64,000 nt of DNA from a bacterium (lineage in GTDB: Bacteria > UBP15 > UBA6099): positions 1 through 64,000 of the forward strand of contig JAKQPS010000051.1 in NCBI GenBank assembly GCA_029564595.1. The letters run 5' to 3'. Numbering within the stretch: position 1 is the stretch's first letter; each line of letters starts with the position of its first letter. The notes beneath the pieces are model-generated. The model did no database searches, was not told the DNA's origin, and was given only the letters and a program-made list of their open reading frames with translations. The position numbers and the translations under genes are program-made. Below are positions 17,144-23,710 of this stretch, in pieces.

Positions 17144-17983
17144 TCAAGGCGAAAACCATTCTGGCTTCATTCCTTGCTCTCTAATTTTCTCGACATCAAG
17201 AATTCTTGGGAATGGCAATACCCCTTTCTGTTTCATCTCTGAATAAAAACCGTTCGCGTATTTGTTTGCATAAGCTTCAACATCTCTCAGGCTTTTTGCA
17301 AAATATTGTTTTTCCCAGATTTCTTTGTTGCCATGATTGGTCTCATGCCGAATAGGGTCTGCCACGCATTCGATGTAATGAACATAGTGGCCCACTTCGT
17401 GCGGTACGGTAAAATAGAGTTGTGTGTTGCGGCAAGATTCAATAGTTGTTTTTATGATGATATTTCTCTTGTCCGATGATATGGCGTGTCCGTGTTCTCT
17501 CAGCAACAGCAATTCTTTTTCAGCCTCTGGCGTTAAGGATTTCGCCCATTTTACTTTTAAGCCCGGTTGACAAGCATTGAGAAATATGCCCGGTCCTGAA
17601 TAAACTCCCAGATTCGCAAAGTATGACATGCGCCCCCACGCAGGCCTTAAAACCTCCTCTTTCTTTGTCGGCTGCCTCAGAACGATGATTTTAATATCTT
17701 TTGTGTGCGATTCTGGAATTAGAGAAAGCACATTCATTATGTCATCAGGTGTGCATGGATGTGCGAAACCATTATTGGTCGGTTCAACAAAAAGTCTAAA
17801 ATCACAGTGGCCATTGCAGATATGTATTACGACAGCATTGCGTAAATACTCATAAAAAACCCGCCCATCTTTCCATCTGCAGCTTTGTGGGACGACATAT
17901 TTATTGTCGCTACCGTGCCCCTGCTTTGAAGTTCCAATGTTTCTGTTGCGTCGTAGCGGATTGACGTATTGTTTCGATTGCAT
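17144..17983 (-). CDS. HExxH protein of unknown function, IrrE/ImmA-like peptidase arrangement
   Basis: I do not recognise a named family for this 279-residue protein. It carries VPHEVGHYVHYIE, an HExxH zinc motif (H195, E196, H199), followed 37 residues later by DVEAYANKYANGF. That order is reminiscent of ImmA/IrrE (DUF955) proteases, whose third ligand lies in an E-x-x-A-N-x-F-A helix. The N-terminal half is unlike that family. Base composition is AT-richer than the flanking genes and the gaps on both sides (about 120 and 190 bases) are AT-rich, suggesting recent acquisition. No signal peptide. No antitoxin or regulator adjoins it. Confidence 0.6.
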   Translation of the reverse strand: MQSKQYVNPLRRNRNIGTSKQGHGSDNKYVVPQSCRWKDGRVFYEYLRNAVVIHICNGHCDFRLFVEPTNNGFAHPCTPDDIMNVLSLIPESHTKDIKIIVLRQPTKKEEVLRPAWGRMSYFANLGVYSGPGIFLNACQPGLKVKWAKSLTPEAEKELLLLREHGHAISSDKRNIIIKTTIESCRNTQLYFTVPHEVGHYVHYIECVADPIRHETNHGNKEIWEKQYFAKSLRDVEAYANKYANGFYSEMKQKGVLPFPRILDVEKIREQGMKPEWFSP

Positions 17984-18174: not shown

Positions 18175-20088
18175 TCACCATTCGGCTTTGAGGCCGAAGA
18201 AGAGGGGGCCGCCGACCCGGATGTGGTTGTGCCTCTTCTGGATGAAGTCGTACGCGGCGTCGGGTATCTTGACGTTTATCTGCTGTGGCCGTTTGGCTAT
18301 TTTCCAGCGCTCTTCGAGCGGGGCTTGTTTGCCGTCGCGGACGGCGGACTCGACGTCGGCGGCGAATCCGGCGATGACGGCGTCGATAAAGCGAACGCCT
18401 GAGCGCGCGCCTTCGTCGTATATCGGCGCGTATTTGTCGCCGAGGGCCATCCTGTCCTGCGGCAGGCCGAGGACTTCTCCTTCGTGCGCGTAGATGGCGT
18501 TCATGGCGGCCAAGCTGAGCATGGGTTTGCCGGCGTCCCAGTTGAATACGGAAATTTTTACTTTTTTGCCGAGGACGTCGCCGTCGAAGAGGGGGACTTC
18601 TGCGGGGCCGGGGGTGTCTTTGGCGGCGACGGCTTTGGCGGTCATGGATTCGAGGGCGGAGGCGAGGGCGGCGGATTCGGGCCGCCGGTCGAACGTTATC
18701 ATTGCGGCTATCTCGGCGTCCGTGAACTCGACTTCTTCGTAGAACTGCGGGAACACGAGCGCTCTGAGGTCGGACGCGCCTGTGAGTATCATCGCCATCC
18801 GCTCGACGCCGAATCCGATGTTGAAGACAGGGAGGTCGATGTTGTAGTTGCGGAGCGCGGCGGGGGCGTAGAAGCCGAGGTTGCCGACTTCGATCTGTTC
18901 GCCTTTGTATTTGACGAACACTTCGGTGTCCGTTTCGGGGTCGTAGTATCTGCTGGCGATTTTTTTCTTCTGGAAGTTGCACTCGTCGAAACCGAGGCGT
19001 TTGAGCACGTCGATGGTGAGGCGTTTGCCGTCTTCCATAGTGAGTTTTTCGTCCATTACGACGACGGAGGCGGATGTGCTTTCAAAGAGGTGGCGGGGGT
19101 CCTGCCGTTGTTCGCGCCTGAAACGGGAGCCGACGGAGAACAGCCTGACTGGCAGGGGCATCTTGTGGCGCATGCGTTCGAGCACGGGGAACCAGTTGCT
19201 GGTCATGTGCGAGCGCAGGGTTTTCTTAGTGACGACAGGCTTGAGTTCCTTGAATTCCGGGAAAACGCGTTCGAGGATTTCCGCGGCTTGGTCGCCGGTT
19301 ATTTTCAGCCTGAGGGCGAGTTCTTCCAAGAAGTCGTCGGCTTCGATGGCGGCCTCTTTGTATTCGCGCAGGAGTATGCGGAGGTCCTGTTCGCGGTCGA
19401 AGCCGGGGACGATTGCGTTGATGAGTTCGAGTTTGGGTTTGCTGAGTCCGATGTCGGCGCGGTCGAGTCCGGCGATGTAGAAAACGCGGTCGAGGATGAG
19501 CGGGGCTTCGGGGCCGTATTGTTTGTAGACGTGTAGGTCGTCGACGATGGCCGGGTTGATCATTTCGTCGAGGCCGAGGTCGAGGAAGGCTTCGCGGAAG
19601 CGCTGGTTGAGGGCGGCGACGGGGTGCTCGCGCCCGGTTTTCATGGCGAACGCGAGGGCTTCGGCGGCCCCGATTTCGATGGAGCGGCTCAGTTCGCTCA
19701 TGGGGTGTCCGCGCCCGGTCATCTCAAATGATTTATACCAGCCGAAGGGACACCGGATGATGGGAAGGTCTTCCATGGCGGCCCTCATCATGCGGATGAT
19801 GCGCAGCGAGTTTTCGGGGCGGCCGAGGTTGTTCGACAGATGGGAGTATGGATAGAGGACGATGGATTTCGCGCCTGTCTGCTGGAATACTTTTTGGATT
19901 TCCTCGCGGGCGCGGGCGACCACCGCGTCGGCGGTTTTCTCGTCGTTCTTTTCGGCGGCTATCATGATAACCAGAGCGTCGTCTACGGCTGCTTCGCGGA
20001 CGACGGGCGGCTCTATTTTTTCAGCAAACTTGGTCTGTTCGGTCGCCCTGAAGGAAAACGGGGCGGAATGTATCATAAGCAGTTTCAT
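18175..20088 (-). CDS. sepS: O-phosphoseryl-tRNA synthetase (SepRS) fused to archaeal-type ThrRS editing domain
   Basis: The 637-residue protein has two parts. Residues 1-140 match the editing domain of archaeal threonyl-tRNA synthetase: MKLLMIHS start, VLYPYSHLSNNLGRP, and FGWYKSFEMTGRGHPMSELSR, keeping equivalents of the His, Tyr, Lys and Glu used for proofreading (H83, Y118, K119, E132 here). Residues 150-637 match SepRS, which loads phosphoserine onto tRNA-Cys for later conversion to cysteine: MINPAIVDDLHVYKQYGPEA, RSHMTSNWF, class II motif 2 (SVGSRFRREQ) and motif 3 (GFGVERMAM). The phosphate-binding positions H294, T296, S339 and S341 are retained. Archaeal SepRS is about 535 residues and lacks this N-terminal domain. 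ATG at 20088 follows GGGAG. The SepCysS partner is not in the window. Confidence 0.9.
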   Translation of the reverse strand: MKLLMIHSAPFSFRATEQTKFAEKIEPPVVREAAVDDALVIMIAAEKNDEKTADAVVARAREEIQKVFQQTGAKSIVLYPYSHLSNNLGRPENSLRIIRMMRAAMEDLPIIRCPFGWYKSFEMTGRGHPMSELSRSIEIGAAEALAFAMKTGREHPVAALNQRFREAFLDLGLDEMINPAIVDDLHVYKQYGPEAPLILDRVFYIAGLDRADIGLSKPKLELINAIVPGFDREQDLRILLREYKEAAIEADDFLEELALRLKITGDQAAEILERVFPEFKELKPVVTKKTLRSHMTSNWFPVLERMRHKMPLPVRLFSVGSRFRREQRQDPRHLFESTSASVVVMDEKLTMEDGKRLTIDVLKRLGFDECNFQKKKIASRYYDPETDTEVFVKYKGEQIEVGNLGFYAPAALRNYNIDLPVFNIGFGVERMAMILTGASDLRALVFPQFYEEVEFTDAEIAAMITFDRRPESAALASALESMTAKAVAAKDTPGPAEVPLFDGDVLGKKVKISVFNWDAGKPMLSLAAMNAIYAHEGEVLGLPQDRMALGDKYAPIYDEGARSGVRFIDAVIAGFAADVESAVRDGKQAPLEERWKIAKRPQQINVKIPDAAYDFIQKRHNHIRVGGPLFFGLKAEW

Positions 20089-20267
20089 TGAGGCTCTCCC
20101 CCGCCGGGCCGACTGTGGTTTCCGCGCCCGGCGCACCTGTAATGTTAATACATAAGGGCGAAGAATTAAAGGAGCGCTGGCGTTCGCGGCGTCGCGCGTC
20201 GGGGGCCTGCGGGTTTTCGGGCGGAGCGCGGCGGGTCTGCGGCGGCCGCAGAGCGCGCGTCTTCAAG

Positions 20268-20324: not shown

Positions 20325-22721
20325 ATGGACTGCGATTGCGGCTCGACCGGCACGATGATATGGAAAGAGGCGGATACGCTTCCTCCGCGCGTCAAAAGGC
20401 TCCGGGACGAGTATTTCTCGTTCTACGAGCGGGACTATTTCCGCAACGAGGCGCTCGGGTTCTCCACGGGCGCGCAATGGGACGTGCTGTGGCGGTCATA
20501 TAACTGGGGCATCAATCCTGAAATTTTCCCGTTTTTCGCGGCGATAGAGGACTCTCTGCTCGCGTCGGCGGTCATTGTGAAAACGCCTGAAAGTTTCTGG
20601 AAGCTGCCGCTTGTCCGGCGGCGGTCGCTGTTCTTTTCCGAAGTTTTAAGAAAGCATTTGCCGGCGCAGATACTTGAGGGCGAGTTGATTGTGGGCGCGC
20701 AGTTCAACAACGCGATGTCCCTGTGCCTGAACAAGGCGGAGGCGAAGGGGTTCCGGGCGGCGCAGAAGAAGTGGTGGGACGCCGCGCAGGTTCTGAACGA
20801 CACCGGCGTGGGCAACTGCGGGGCGGTGCCGGGGCATCTGATTCCGAACTACAAAAAAGCCGTTGAGATAGGATTCGCCGGGTACGCCGAGGAGATAAAA
20901 GCGGAACTGAGGAAGCAGCCGGATGAGAGGAAGCGGGCGCAGTTGCAGGCGATGCTGGAGTGTTGCGAGGCCGTTCCGGATTTCACGTCGCGGTATGCGG
21001 CGGAGGCGGAAAGGCTGGCGGCAGCCGAGGGCGACGCGGCGCGCCGCGCGGAGCTTGCCGAGATAGCGCGCGTCTGCCGCAAGGTTCCGTGGAACCCGCC
21101 GGAAACGTTCGCGGAGTCCCTGCAGGCGGTGTGGTTCACGCACATGCTGGCGATGTTCTCCGAGTCCTATCCGGGGCCGGGCGTCTCGCACGGGCGCATC
21201 GACCAATACCTGTTCCCGCTGTACAAGAAGAGCGTCGAGCAGGGAATGACGAGGGAGCAGGCGCGCGAGTTGCTGATGTGTTTCTGGATTAAACACAATT
21301 ACGCTTATGATTTCATGGGCCGCGTCGGGGCCAATCAGGGAATAAATTCAGGGTTCGGGCAGTTGGTCACGTTGAGCGGGTGCGGGCCTGACGGCTCAGA
21401 CCTGACGAACGAGCTGACGATGCTCATGCTGGACGTTATCGAGGAAATAAACATGCTGGAGCCGAAGCCGAACGTTAGGCTTCACAGGAACTCGCCGCCG
21501 GAACTGGTGGAGCGGGTGGGCGGGATGTTGTCCAAGGCGCAGGGAGCGCCCGTGCTGCTCAACTTCGACGAGGCGTCCATGCGCGGCCTCAAGTGGCAGG
21601 GCATGCCGGAGGGCGAGCTGTGGGACTACGCGCCCGTCGGATGCCTAGAAAACGCGTTTCAGGGCTGCGATCGCTCCGGCACGGTGGACGTCAACCTCAA
21701 CTTGGCCAAAGCGGTTGAACTTACGCTCAACGACGGTTGCGATTTGGCTACCGGACGGCGAATCGGCCCGAAGACGGGCGACCCGGCGGCTTTCGACTCG
21801 TTCGACAAATTCTACGCCGCCTTCAACGCGCAGCTTGACGCCCTGCTGGACGTCATCTGCGAGTGCGTCGAGACGGCGGACTTCGTCCGCTCCAAATACG
21901 AGTTCATCCCTTATCTGTCCGTCCTTGTGGACGGTTGCATGGAGAACGGCAGGGACATCAACGAGGGCGGCGCGAAATACAACTACATAACTGTCGAGGG
22001 CATCGCGTTCGGCACGACGGTAGACTCCGTCGCGGCTGTGAAGAAGGTGGTGTTTGAGGAGGGCAGGGTGTCGATGCCCGACCTTGTGGCGGCCATCAAG
22101 TCAAACTACGAGGGACACGAAAAGACGCGCCAGTTCATGATGAACCGCGCGCCGAAATACGGCACTGACGACAACGAGGCAGATGCGCTGGCGGCTGAGA
22201 TTAACAAGCGGTGGACGGAGCGCGCGTTCGCTCGCGTCTCCCCGCACACCGGCAAACGGTTCCGGGGCGGCTACCTTTCGTGGAACTACTGGATAGCGTA
22301 CGCGCCTTTCACCGCCGCCACGCCAGACGGCAGAAAGCGCGGCTCGTTCCTGTCCAACGGCATAGGCCCGGTAAACGGGATGGACCGCAAAGGGCCGACC
22401 GCCAACATCCGCTCCGTAGGCAAGGTCGGGCTTGAGTCCGCTCCCAACGGCGCGTCGCACACCATCAGCGTCAGCCCGTCGCTGTTGCGCGACCCCGAAC
22501 ACGTGACGAAACTTTCGTCCATGCTGCGGGCGTACGCGCTCGAAGGCGGCACCGCGCTTCAGGTGAATGTGCTCGACCCCGACACTCTCCGGCGCGCTCA
22601 GAAAAATCCAGAAGAATACCGCAACCTGCTGGTAAGGGTCACGGGCTACAACGCGTATTTCGTGAACCTCGGCAGAGAGATTCAGGACGAGATAATCGCG
22701 CGCGAGGCGGGGGTTCTCTGA
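20325..22721 (+). CDS. glycyl radical enzyme of unassigned substrate (PFL-like superfamily)
   Basis: The 798-residue protein is an oxygen-sensitive glycyl radical enzyme. The thiyl-radical cysteine lies in APVGCLEN (Cys440) with Glu442 two residues later; the C-x-E pattern occurs in eliminases (diol, choline, hydroxyproline and isethionate type) and in arylacetate decarboxylases, whereas PFL itself has adjacent cysteines. The radical-bearing Gly774 sits in RVTGYNAYFVNLG, and the end QDEIIARE is standard. Length fits the superfamily. GGGAG precedes the ATG. The activase follows after 47 bases. No microcompartment, transporter or downstream enzyme adjoins, so the substrate cannot be read from context. 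Confidence 0.9.
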   Translation: MDCDCGSTGTMIWKEADTLPPRVKRLRDEYFSFYERDYFRNEALGFSTGAQWDVLWRSYNWGINPEIFPFFAAIEDSLLASAVIVKTPESFWKLPLVRRRSLFFSEVLRKHLPAQILEGELIVGAQFNNAMSLCLNKAEAKGFRAAQKKWWDAAQVLNDTGVGNCGAVPGHLIPNYKKAVEIGFAGYAEEIKAELRKQPDERKRAQLQAMLECCEAVPDFTSRYAAEAERLAAAEGDAARRAELAEIARVCRKVPWNPPETFAESLQAVWFTHMLAMFSESYPGPGVSHGRIDQYLFPLYKKSVEQGMTREQARELLMCFWIKHNYAYDFMGRVGANQGINSGFGQLVTLSGCGPDGSDLTNELTMLMLDVIEEINMLEPKPNVRLHRNSPPELVERVGGMLSKAQGAPVLLNFDEASMRGLKWQGMPEGELWDYAPVGCLENAFQGCDRSGTVDVNLNLAKAVELTLNDGCDLATGRRIGPKTGDPAAFDSFDKFYAAFNAQLDALLDVICECVETADFVRSKYEFIPYLSVLVDGCMENGRDINEGGAKYNYITVEGIAFGTTVDSVAAVKKVVFEEGRVSMPDLVAAIKSNYEGHEKTRQFMMNRAPKYGTDDNEADALAAEINKRWTERAFARVSPHTGKRFRGGYLSWNYWIAYAPFTAATPDGRKRGSFLSNGIGPVNGMDRKGPTANIRSVGKVGLESAPNGASHTISVSPSLLRDPEHVTKLSSMLRAYALEGGTALQVNVLDPDTLRRAQKNPEEYRNLLVRVTGYNAYFVNLGREIQDEIIAREAGVL

Positions 22722-22768
22722 GAGATGCGCCGAACCGCCACCATGACCGCGCTTCCGGCGGCGCGCCG

Positions 22769-23710
22769 ATGAGCCGCGAAGCTGTCATCTTCAACGTCCA
22801 ACGATTCAGCACCGAGGACGGCCCCGGCATCCGCACGACGTGCTTTTTTAAGGGCTGCCCGCTGTCCTGCCTGTGGTGCCACAACCCCGAAGGCATATCT
22901 CCGCGCCCCCAGACGATGTGGTACGACGTCAGATGCATCGGCTGCCGCAGTTGCGTGGATGTCTGCCCGGTGGGCGCGCTCACGGCGGGCGACAAAGGCA
23001 TTAAGATTAACCGCTCCACATGTTCGGCGTGCGGCAAATGCGCGGACGCCTGCCCGGCGGCGGCCATAGAGATTATCGGCAAAAGCTGGACGCCGGAGGC
23101 TCTTACGGACGAGGTTCTGCGGGACTCCGCGTTCTATGAAACATCGGGCGGCGGGGTGACGATATCCGGCGGCGAGCCTCTGGCGCAACACGAGTTCGTT
23201 ATGGATTTCATCAGCAGATGCAAAGGGGCCGGACTGCATGTCGCGCTGGACACCTCCGGCTACGCCGCTCCCGCCGTGTTCGACCCCGCCGCCGACGCCG
23301 CAGACATGGTTCTGCTTGACCTCAAGACGCTCAACCCCGAAGCGCATCTCGCGTGGACGGGCGTTCCTCTGGAGCCAGTGCTGCGCAGCGCCCGCAGACT
23401 CGGAGAAACCCGCAAGCGCGTGTGGGTCCGCACCCCCGTTATCCCCGGCGCCACAGACTCGCCCGAAAATATCGCCGCTGTCGCCCGCTTCATCGCCGAC
23501 AACCTTCCCGGCTGCGACCGCTACGACATATTGCCATTCAGCAATTTGTGCGCGTCAAAATACGAAAGGCTGGGCATGGAGTTCAGGTTCAAGGAAACCC
23601 CGCTCGTGCCGATGGAACGGATGGAAGAGTTAAAAGCCGCCGCCGAACGCGCCGGCGCCCCCAACGTCGTAATCCAAGGTCTCACCACAAGAAAATCCCA
23701 ACCGGAATAA
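22769..23710 (+). CDS. glycyl-radical-enzyme activating enzyme (radical SAM)
   Basis: The 313-residue protein installs the glycyl radical in the preceding GRE using S-adenosylmethionine. The radical SAM cluster motif is GCPLSCLWCHNPE (C30, C34, C37), followed by two 4Fe-4S inserts (CIGCRSCVDVCP and CSACGKCADACP) typical of activases for eliminase-type GREs rather than for PFL. SGGGVTISGGEPL is the SAM-contacting strand. It lies 47 bases after the GRE gene on the same strand, so co-transcription is very likely. The next gene is convergent and AT-rich. Confidence 0.92.
   Translation: MSREAVIFNVQRFSTEDGPGIRTTCFFKGCPLSCLWCHNPEGISPRPQTMWYDVRCIGCRSCVDVCPVGALTAGDKGIKINRSTCSACGKCADACPAAAIEIIGKSWTPEALTDEVLRDSAFYETSGGGVTISGGEPLAQHEFVMDFISRCKGAGLHVALDTSGYAAPAVFDPAADAADMVLLDLKTLNPEAHLAWTGVPLEPVLRSARRLGETRKRVWVRTPVIPGATDSPENIAAVARFIADNLPGCDRYDILPFSNLCASKYERLGMEFRFKETPLVPMERMEELKAAAERAGAPNVVIQGLTTRKSQPE

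Follow-up and report, generated by a model that had tools for sequence, protein, structure and literature searches.

The stretch analysed here (the window) comprises positions 1 to 64,000 of contig JAKQPS010000051.1 (assembly GCA_029564595.1), from a bacterium of the UBP15 lineage. It contains a gene predicted to encode an archaeal threonyl-tRNA synthetase (ThrRS)-type editing domain (ED) joined to O-phosphoseryl-tRNA synthetase (SepRS). The boundaries given in a preliminary description of this DNA, 18175-20088, are correct; the gene lies on the minus strand and is one open frame, with the following features.

18175..20088, minus strand: ED-SepRS fusion gene, a single uninterrupted frame of 637 amino acids (P0001)
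19678..20088, minus strand: archaeal ThrRS-type editing domain (tRNA-Thr_ED), residues 1-137, from PF08915 and alignments to PDB 4rrf and 1y2q
19645..19677, minus strand: linker, residues 138-148, left between the matches to PF08915 and TIGR00470
18181..19644, minus strand: O-phosphoseryl-tRNA synthetase body, residues 149-636, from TIGR00470 and alignment to solved SepRS
19198-19209, minus strand: HMTS motif of the SepRS body, kept in alignment to 2du7, 5x6c, 2du5 and 2odr
19066-19080, minus strand: STSAS motif of the SepRS body, kept in the same alignment

The first possible start codon of the frame is GTG at 20136, with an ATG further in at 20088. The latter is the likely start of the protein, since the PF08915 profile begins exactly there and GGAG is found 7 nucleotides upstream.

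The N-terminal part, assigned in the preliminary description (residues 1-140) to the archaeal ThrRS editing family, matches PF08915 over the whole profile (residues 1-137; profile positions 1-137 of 137; E 1.2e-38; 132.8 bits versus a cut-off of 30.2), and solved ThrRS editing domains align to the same residues (4rrf, E 7e-29; also 1y2q). The motifs named in that description occur where it had placed them, i.e., SHLSNN at residue 82, WYK at 117-119, and GHPMSELSR at 127. The editing pocket of Pyrococcus abyssi ThrRS is lined by His83, Tyr120, Lys121, and Glu134; activity does not require Tyr or Glu but is severely impaired when Lys is lost (PMC4491819). With these residues as reference, the pocket is kept in the fusion as His83, Tyr118, Lys119, and Glu132. 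Position 82, Ala in archaeal editing domains, is Ser in the fusion; the ThrRS encoded by the same genome has Val there.

The remainder of the protein was recognized as SepRS from residue 150 onward in the preliminary description, and it matches the NCBIfam SepRS equivalog TIGR00470 (residues 149-636; E 5.3e-136) at 454.2 bits, above the curated cut-off of 380.65. Solved archaeal SepRS chains (2du7, 5x6c, 2du5, and 2odr) align to residues 150-636 with E values of 1e-101 to 1e-109, and these alignments confirm conservation of the phosphate-contact motifs for O-phosphoserine (Sep), HMTS at residue 294 and STSAS at 337. Class II motifs are also present, and matches this strong in both halves of the protein lie well outside what chance would give. 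The TIGR00470 match covers profile positions 41-531, and the first 40 positions, which correspond to the canonical N-terminal extension (PMC8762117), are absent from the fusion. Judged from its sequence, the protein is therefore a SepRS that carries a serine-editing-type domain where the canonical N-terminal extension would be.

An archaeal-like SepRS half on a contig from a metagenome-assembled genome could indicate a chimeric assembly, or contamination that placed a foreign gene in this bacterium. The frame is, however, free of stops, and the full layout from residue 1 recurs in bacterium ADurb.Bin236 (L003, contig MWCD01000035.1; genome G004, same genus; 99% identical) and in Dive96_bin1.91 (L005; G002, same order but another family; 64% identical). 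The latter keeps the same His/Tyr/Lys/Glu editing-pocket motifs. A further copy in RA.bin91 (L004; G003) has the contig end falling inside the editing domain. Because the full fusion is present in two assemblies of other species, and was found independently in 2017, it is one gene and no assembly artefact; chimerism or a frame error is ruled out by the independent assemblies, and foreign origin of the gene through contamination is next to impossible.

The SepRS-linked and ThrRS-linked editing domains of the window genome are 38% identical and fall on separate long branches of a 22-row editing-domain tree, which is too small to name a donor. Recent duplication of the editing domain of the same-genome ThrRS is not supported by these data, and recent internal copying is unlikely. 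A search for the fusion in methanogen-related archaea (100 genomes, one phylum) found editing domains only in ThrRS-length frames, apart from one 384-amino-acid frame. Stand-alone editing-like proteins of 141-163 amino acids occur in G002 (L092, C22:42358-42771; its contig also carries the SepRS fusion) and G001 (L088, C261:13181-13594). Both have WFN for WYK and Arg at the pocket Glu, and loss of the key lysine makes their editing activity doubtful.

The window genome (G000; 4.40 Mb, 97% complete) was compared with the rest of a set of seven genomes of the phylum (G000-G006). SepCysS, CysRS, and tRNA-Cys, which the preliminary description had proposed to look for in the same genome, are all present. 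SepCysS (C97:26010-27092; 504 bits) supports the assignment to the cysteine pathway and overlaps an upstream open reading frame of 65 amino acids, which occupies the place of SepCysSn in the SepCysSn-SepCysS operon reported for ADurb.Bin236 (PMC5424206). An NCBIfam search with this short frame gave no match; from its position and the ADurb.Bin236 report, we infer that it is SepCysSn. CysRS is a normal copy (C137; 509 bits) in which the HIGH and KMSKS motifs are intact. The genome further encodes a cysteine synthase (C15; 447 bits) and, on C138, a ThrRS of archaeal type with a complete editing domain of its own. Across the phylum, CysRS is found in seven of seven genomes, SepCysS in six, and full SepRS in four. 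G001 and G002 each have an additional SepCysS that is more divergent and scores under the family cut-off (L077, G001:C2; L076, G002:C121). The frames before it resemble, by eye, a ThiF/MoeB-type enzyme and a DUF169-type protein; a TusA-like frame follows it in G001, and the locus is possibly a sulfur-transfer operon.

Three tRNA-Cys genes of two sequence classes were found in G000 (L042, L053, and L101), all with a GCA anticodon, A37, and U73. Class A (GGCGACG...) and class B (GGCCGYG...) occur together in G000, G001, G002, G004, and G006. G003 has one class B-like gene and one intermediate, and G005 (only 67% complete) has class B alone, with SepRS, SepCysS, and the editing domain not found. 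All three tRNA-Gly genes recovered in G000 also end in U73, as do the three recovered tRNA-Thr genes (L029, L041, L045, L052 region), both read manually from ARAGORN sequences. U73 is the discriminator base of archaeal tRNA-Thr (PMC8762117), and its presence on tRNA-Thr fits the archaeal-type ThrRS of G000.

These features are best accommodated if the fused domain clears Ser-tRNA(Cys), a function to which we assign a probability of about 0.68. The SepRS part would charge tRNA(Cys) with Sep, and SepCysS, encoded elsewhere in the genome, would turn Sep-tRNA(Cys) into Cys-tRNA(Cys). Ser-tRNA(Cys) may arise through dephosphorylation of Sep-tRNA(Cys) or through serine mischarging; its CCA end would then swing into the fused domain, where the seryl ester would be hydrolysed. 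Sep charging and Ser hydrolysis are both activities that we infer from the known families. Clearance of Ser-tRNA(Cys) is suggested by PF08915 and TIGR00470 matches that span nearly the whole protein, by retention of the His/Tyr/Lys/Glu pocket in both the window protein and its 64% relative, and by HMTS and STSAS motifs that align to solved SepRS. It is also consistent with SepCysS in the same genome and in most of the phylum, and with U73 on every tRNA-Cys gene, a base on which ThrRS editing reportedly depends (PMC8762117). PMC5424206 and PMC8762117 had independently arrived at this hypothesis.

Several points weigh against this function. As tRNA-Gly and tRNA-Thr also carry U73, this base alone gives the domain no specificity for tRNA(Cys), and the normal CysRS makes the Sep route an addition to the supply of Cys-tRNA rather than its sole source. 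A literature search turned up no experimental activity test of the fusion, and the identity of the misacylated species has itself been questioned (PMC8762117).

Absence of the canonical N-terminal extension would be expected if the domain served mainly as an acceptor-stem binding or dimerisation module in its place, with editing secondary or lost. All pocket residues, including Lys, are nevertheless kept across relatives that are 55% identical in the editing domain, whereas pocket residues have been lost from the stand-alone paralogues of this order, and such a module is improbable as the main role. It is also unlikely that the domain instead edits a D-aminoacyl-tRNA, or Ser-tRNA(Thr) in trans, or acts as a brake by hydrolysing Sep-tRNA(Cys) itself. 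The complete editing domain of the same-genome ThrRS would make a second one for Ser-tRNA(Thr) redundant, and the physical link to SepRS suggests that the domain acts on tRNA(Cys). Given the reported reliance on U73 and its presence on tRNA-Gly, free-floating editing could threaten Gly-tRNA(Gly), a hazard suggested as the reason for tethering the domain (PMC8762117).

Clearance of Ser-tRNA(Cys) by the fusion could also form part of a larger arrangement, in which two partly separate cysteine lines exist, one tRNA-Cys class being served by CysRS and the other by SepCysS and a self-proofreading SepRS. This is speculative and rather improbable; if true, gain or loss of the Sep route would go along with gain or loss of class A tRNA-Cys, of which the incomplete G005 genome gives a hint.

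Adjoining the SepRS gene and divergent from it, positions 20325-23710 (plus strand) encode a PFL2-group glycyl radical enzyme together with its activase; the enzyme scores under all equivalog cut-offs. Directly downstream, positions 17144-17983 (minus strand) encode a 279-amino-acid protein with no match in an NCBIfam search.

Although the preliminary description regarded the architecture as new, Mukai et al. described it in ADurb.Bin236 in 2017 and proposed Ser-tRNA(Cys) clearance (PMC5424206), and a 2022 follow-up devoted a section to the fusion, with three such variants listed and a structural model, and noted that where SepRS and CysRS occur together, SepRS may function chiefly in making cysteine (PMC8762117). 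Architecture and proposed role are thus already known, and the mechanism in the preliminary description matches the published one. The window contributes a further, closely related fusion sequence, which is real, well supported, and functionally plausible, with its full genomic setting. Small additions here are the presence of CysRS in all seven genomes of the set, the two tRNA-Cys classes, and the Lys-less stand-alone editing-like proteins of two relatives. If Ser-tRNA(Cys) clearance is correct, proofreading would for the first time be seen in an aminoacyl-tRNA synthetase whose amino acid is not genetically encoded, and loss of the phosphate from Sep-tRNA(Cys), or mischarging, would pose a genuine risk in the indirect route to cysteine.

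The window protein has the N-terminal ED, short linker, and SepRS without N-terminal extension of the published SepRS-ED type, with an 11-residue gap between matches versus a linker of ~20 amino acids given in the paper. It shares architecture, 99% identity, and genus with the noncanonical SepRS of ADurb.Bin236 (OQA87054.1; PMC5424206) but comes from another genome of that genus and differs by a few substitutions. By description it also resembles HyVt-268 SepRS, in which an ED takes the position normally held by the N-terminal extension and the serine-recognition motif is conserved. Sequence family and pocket residues are shared with archaeal ThrRS editing domains (PDB 4rrf, 1y2q, and 2hl1), whose host enzyme is ThrRS rather than SepRS and which have Ala82 rather than Ser82. 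Archaeal SepRS (PDB 2du7, 2du5, 5x6c, and 2odr) has similar aminoacylation and C-terminal regions and Sep-contact motifs, but carries an N-terminal extension instead of the editing domain, and its cognate tRNA-Cys has m1G37, whereas that of the window genome has A37. The archaeal stand-alone tRNA-Thr-ED linked to clade VII SepCysS (PMC5424206) likewise ties an editing-type domain to the SepRS/SepCysS route, but is encoded by separate genes and would act in trans, if at all, whereas the window domain is fused.
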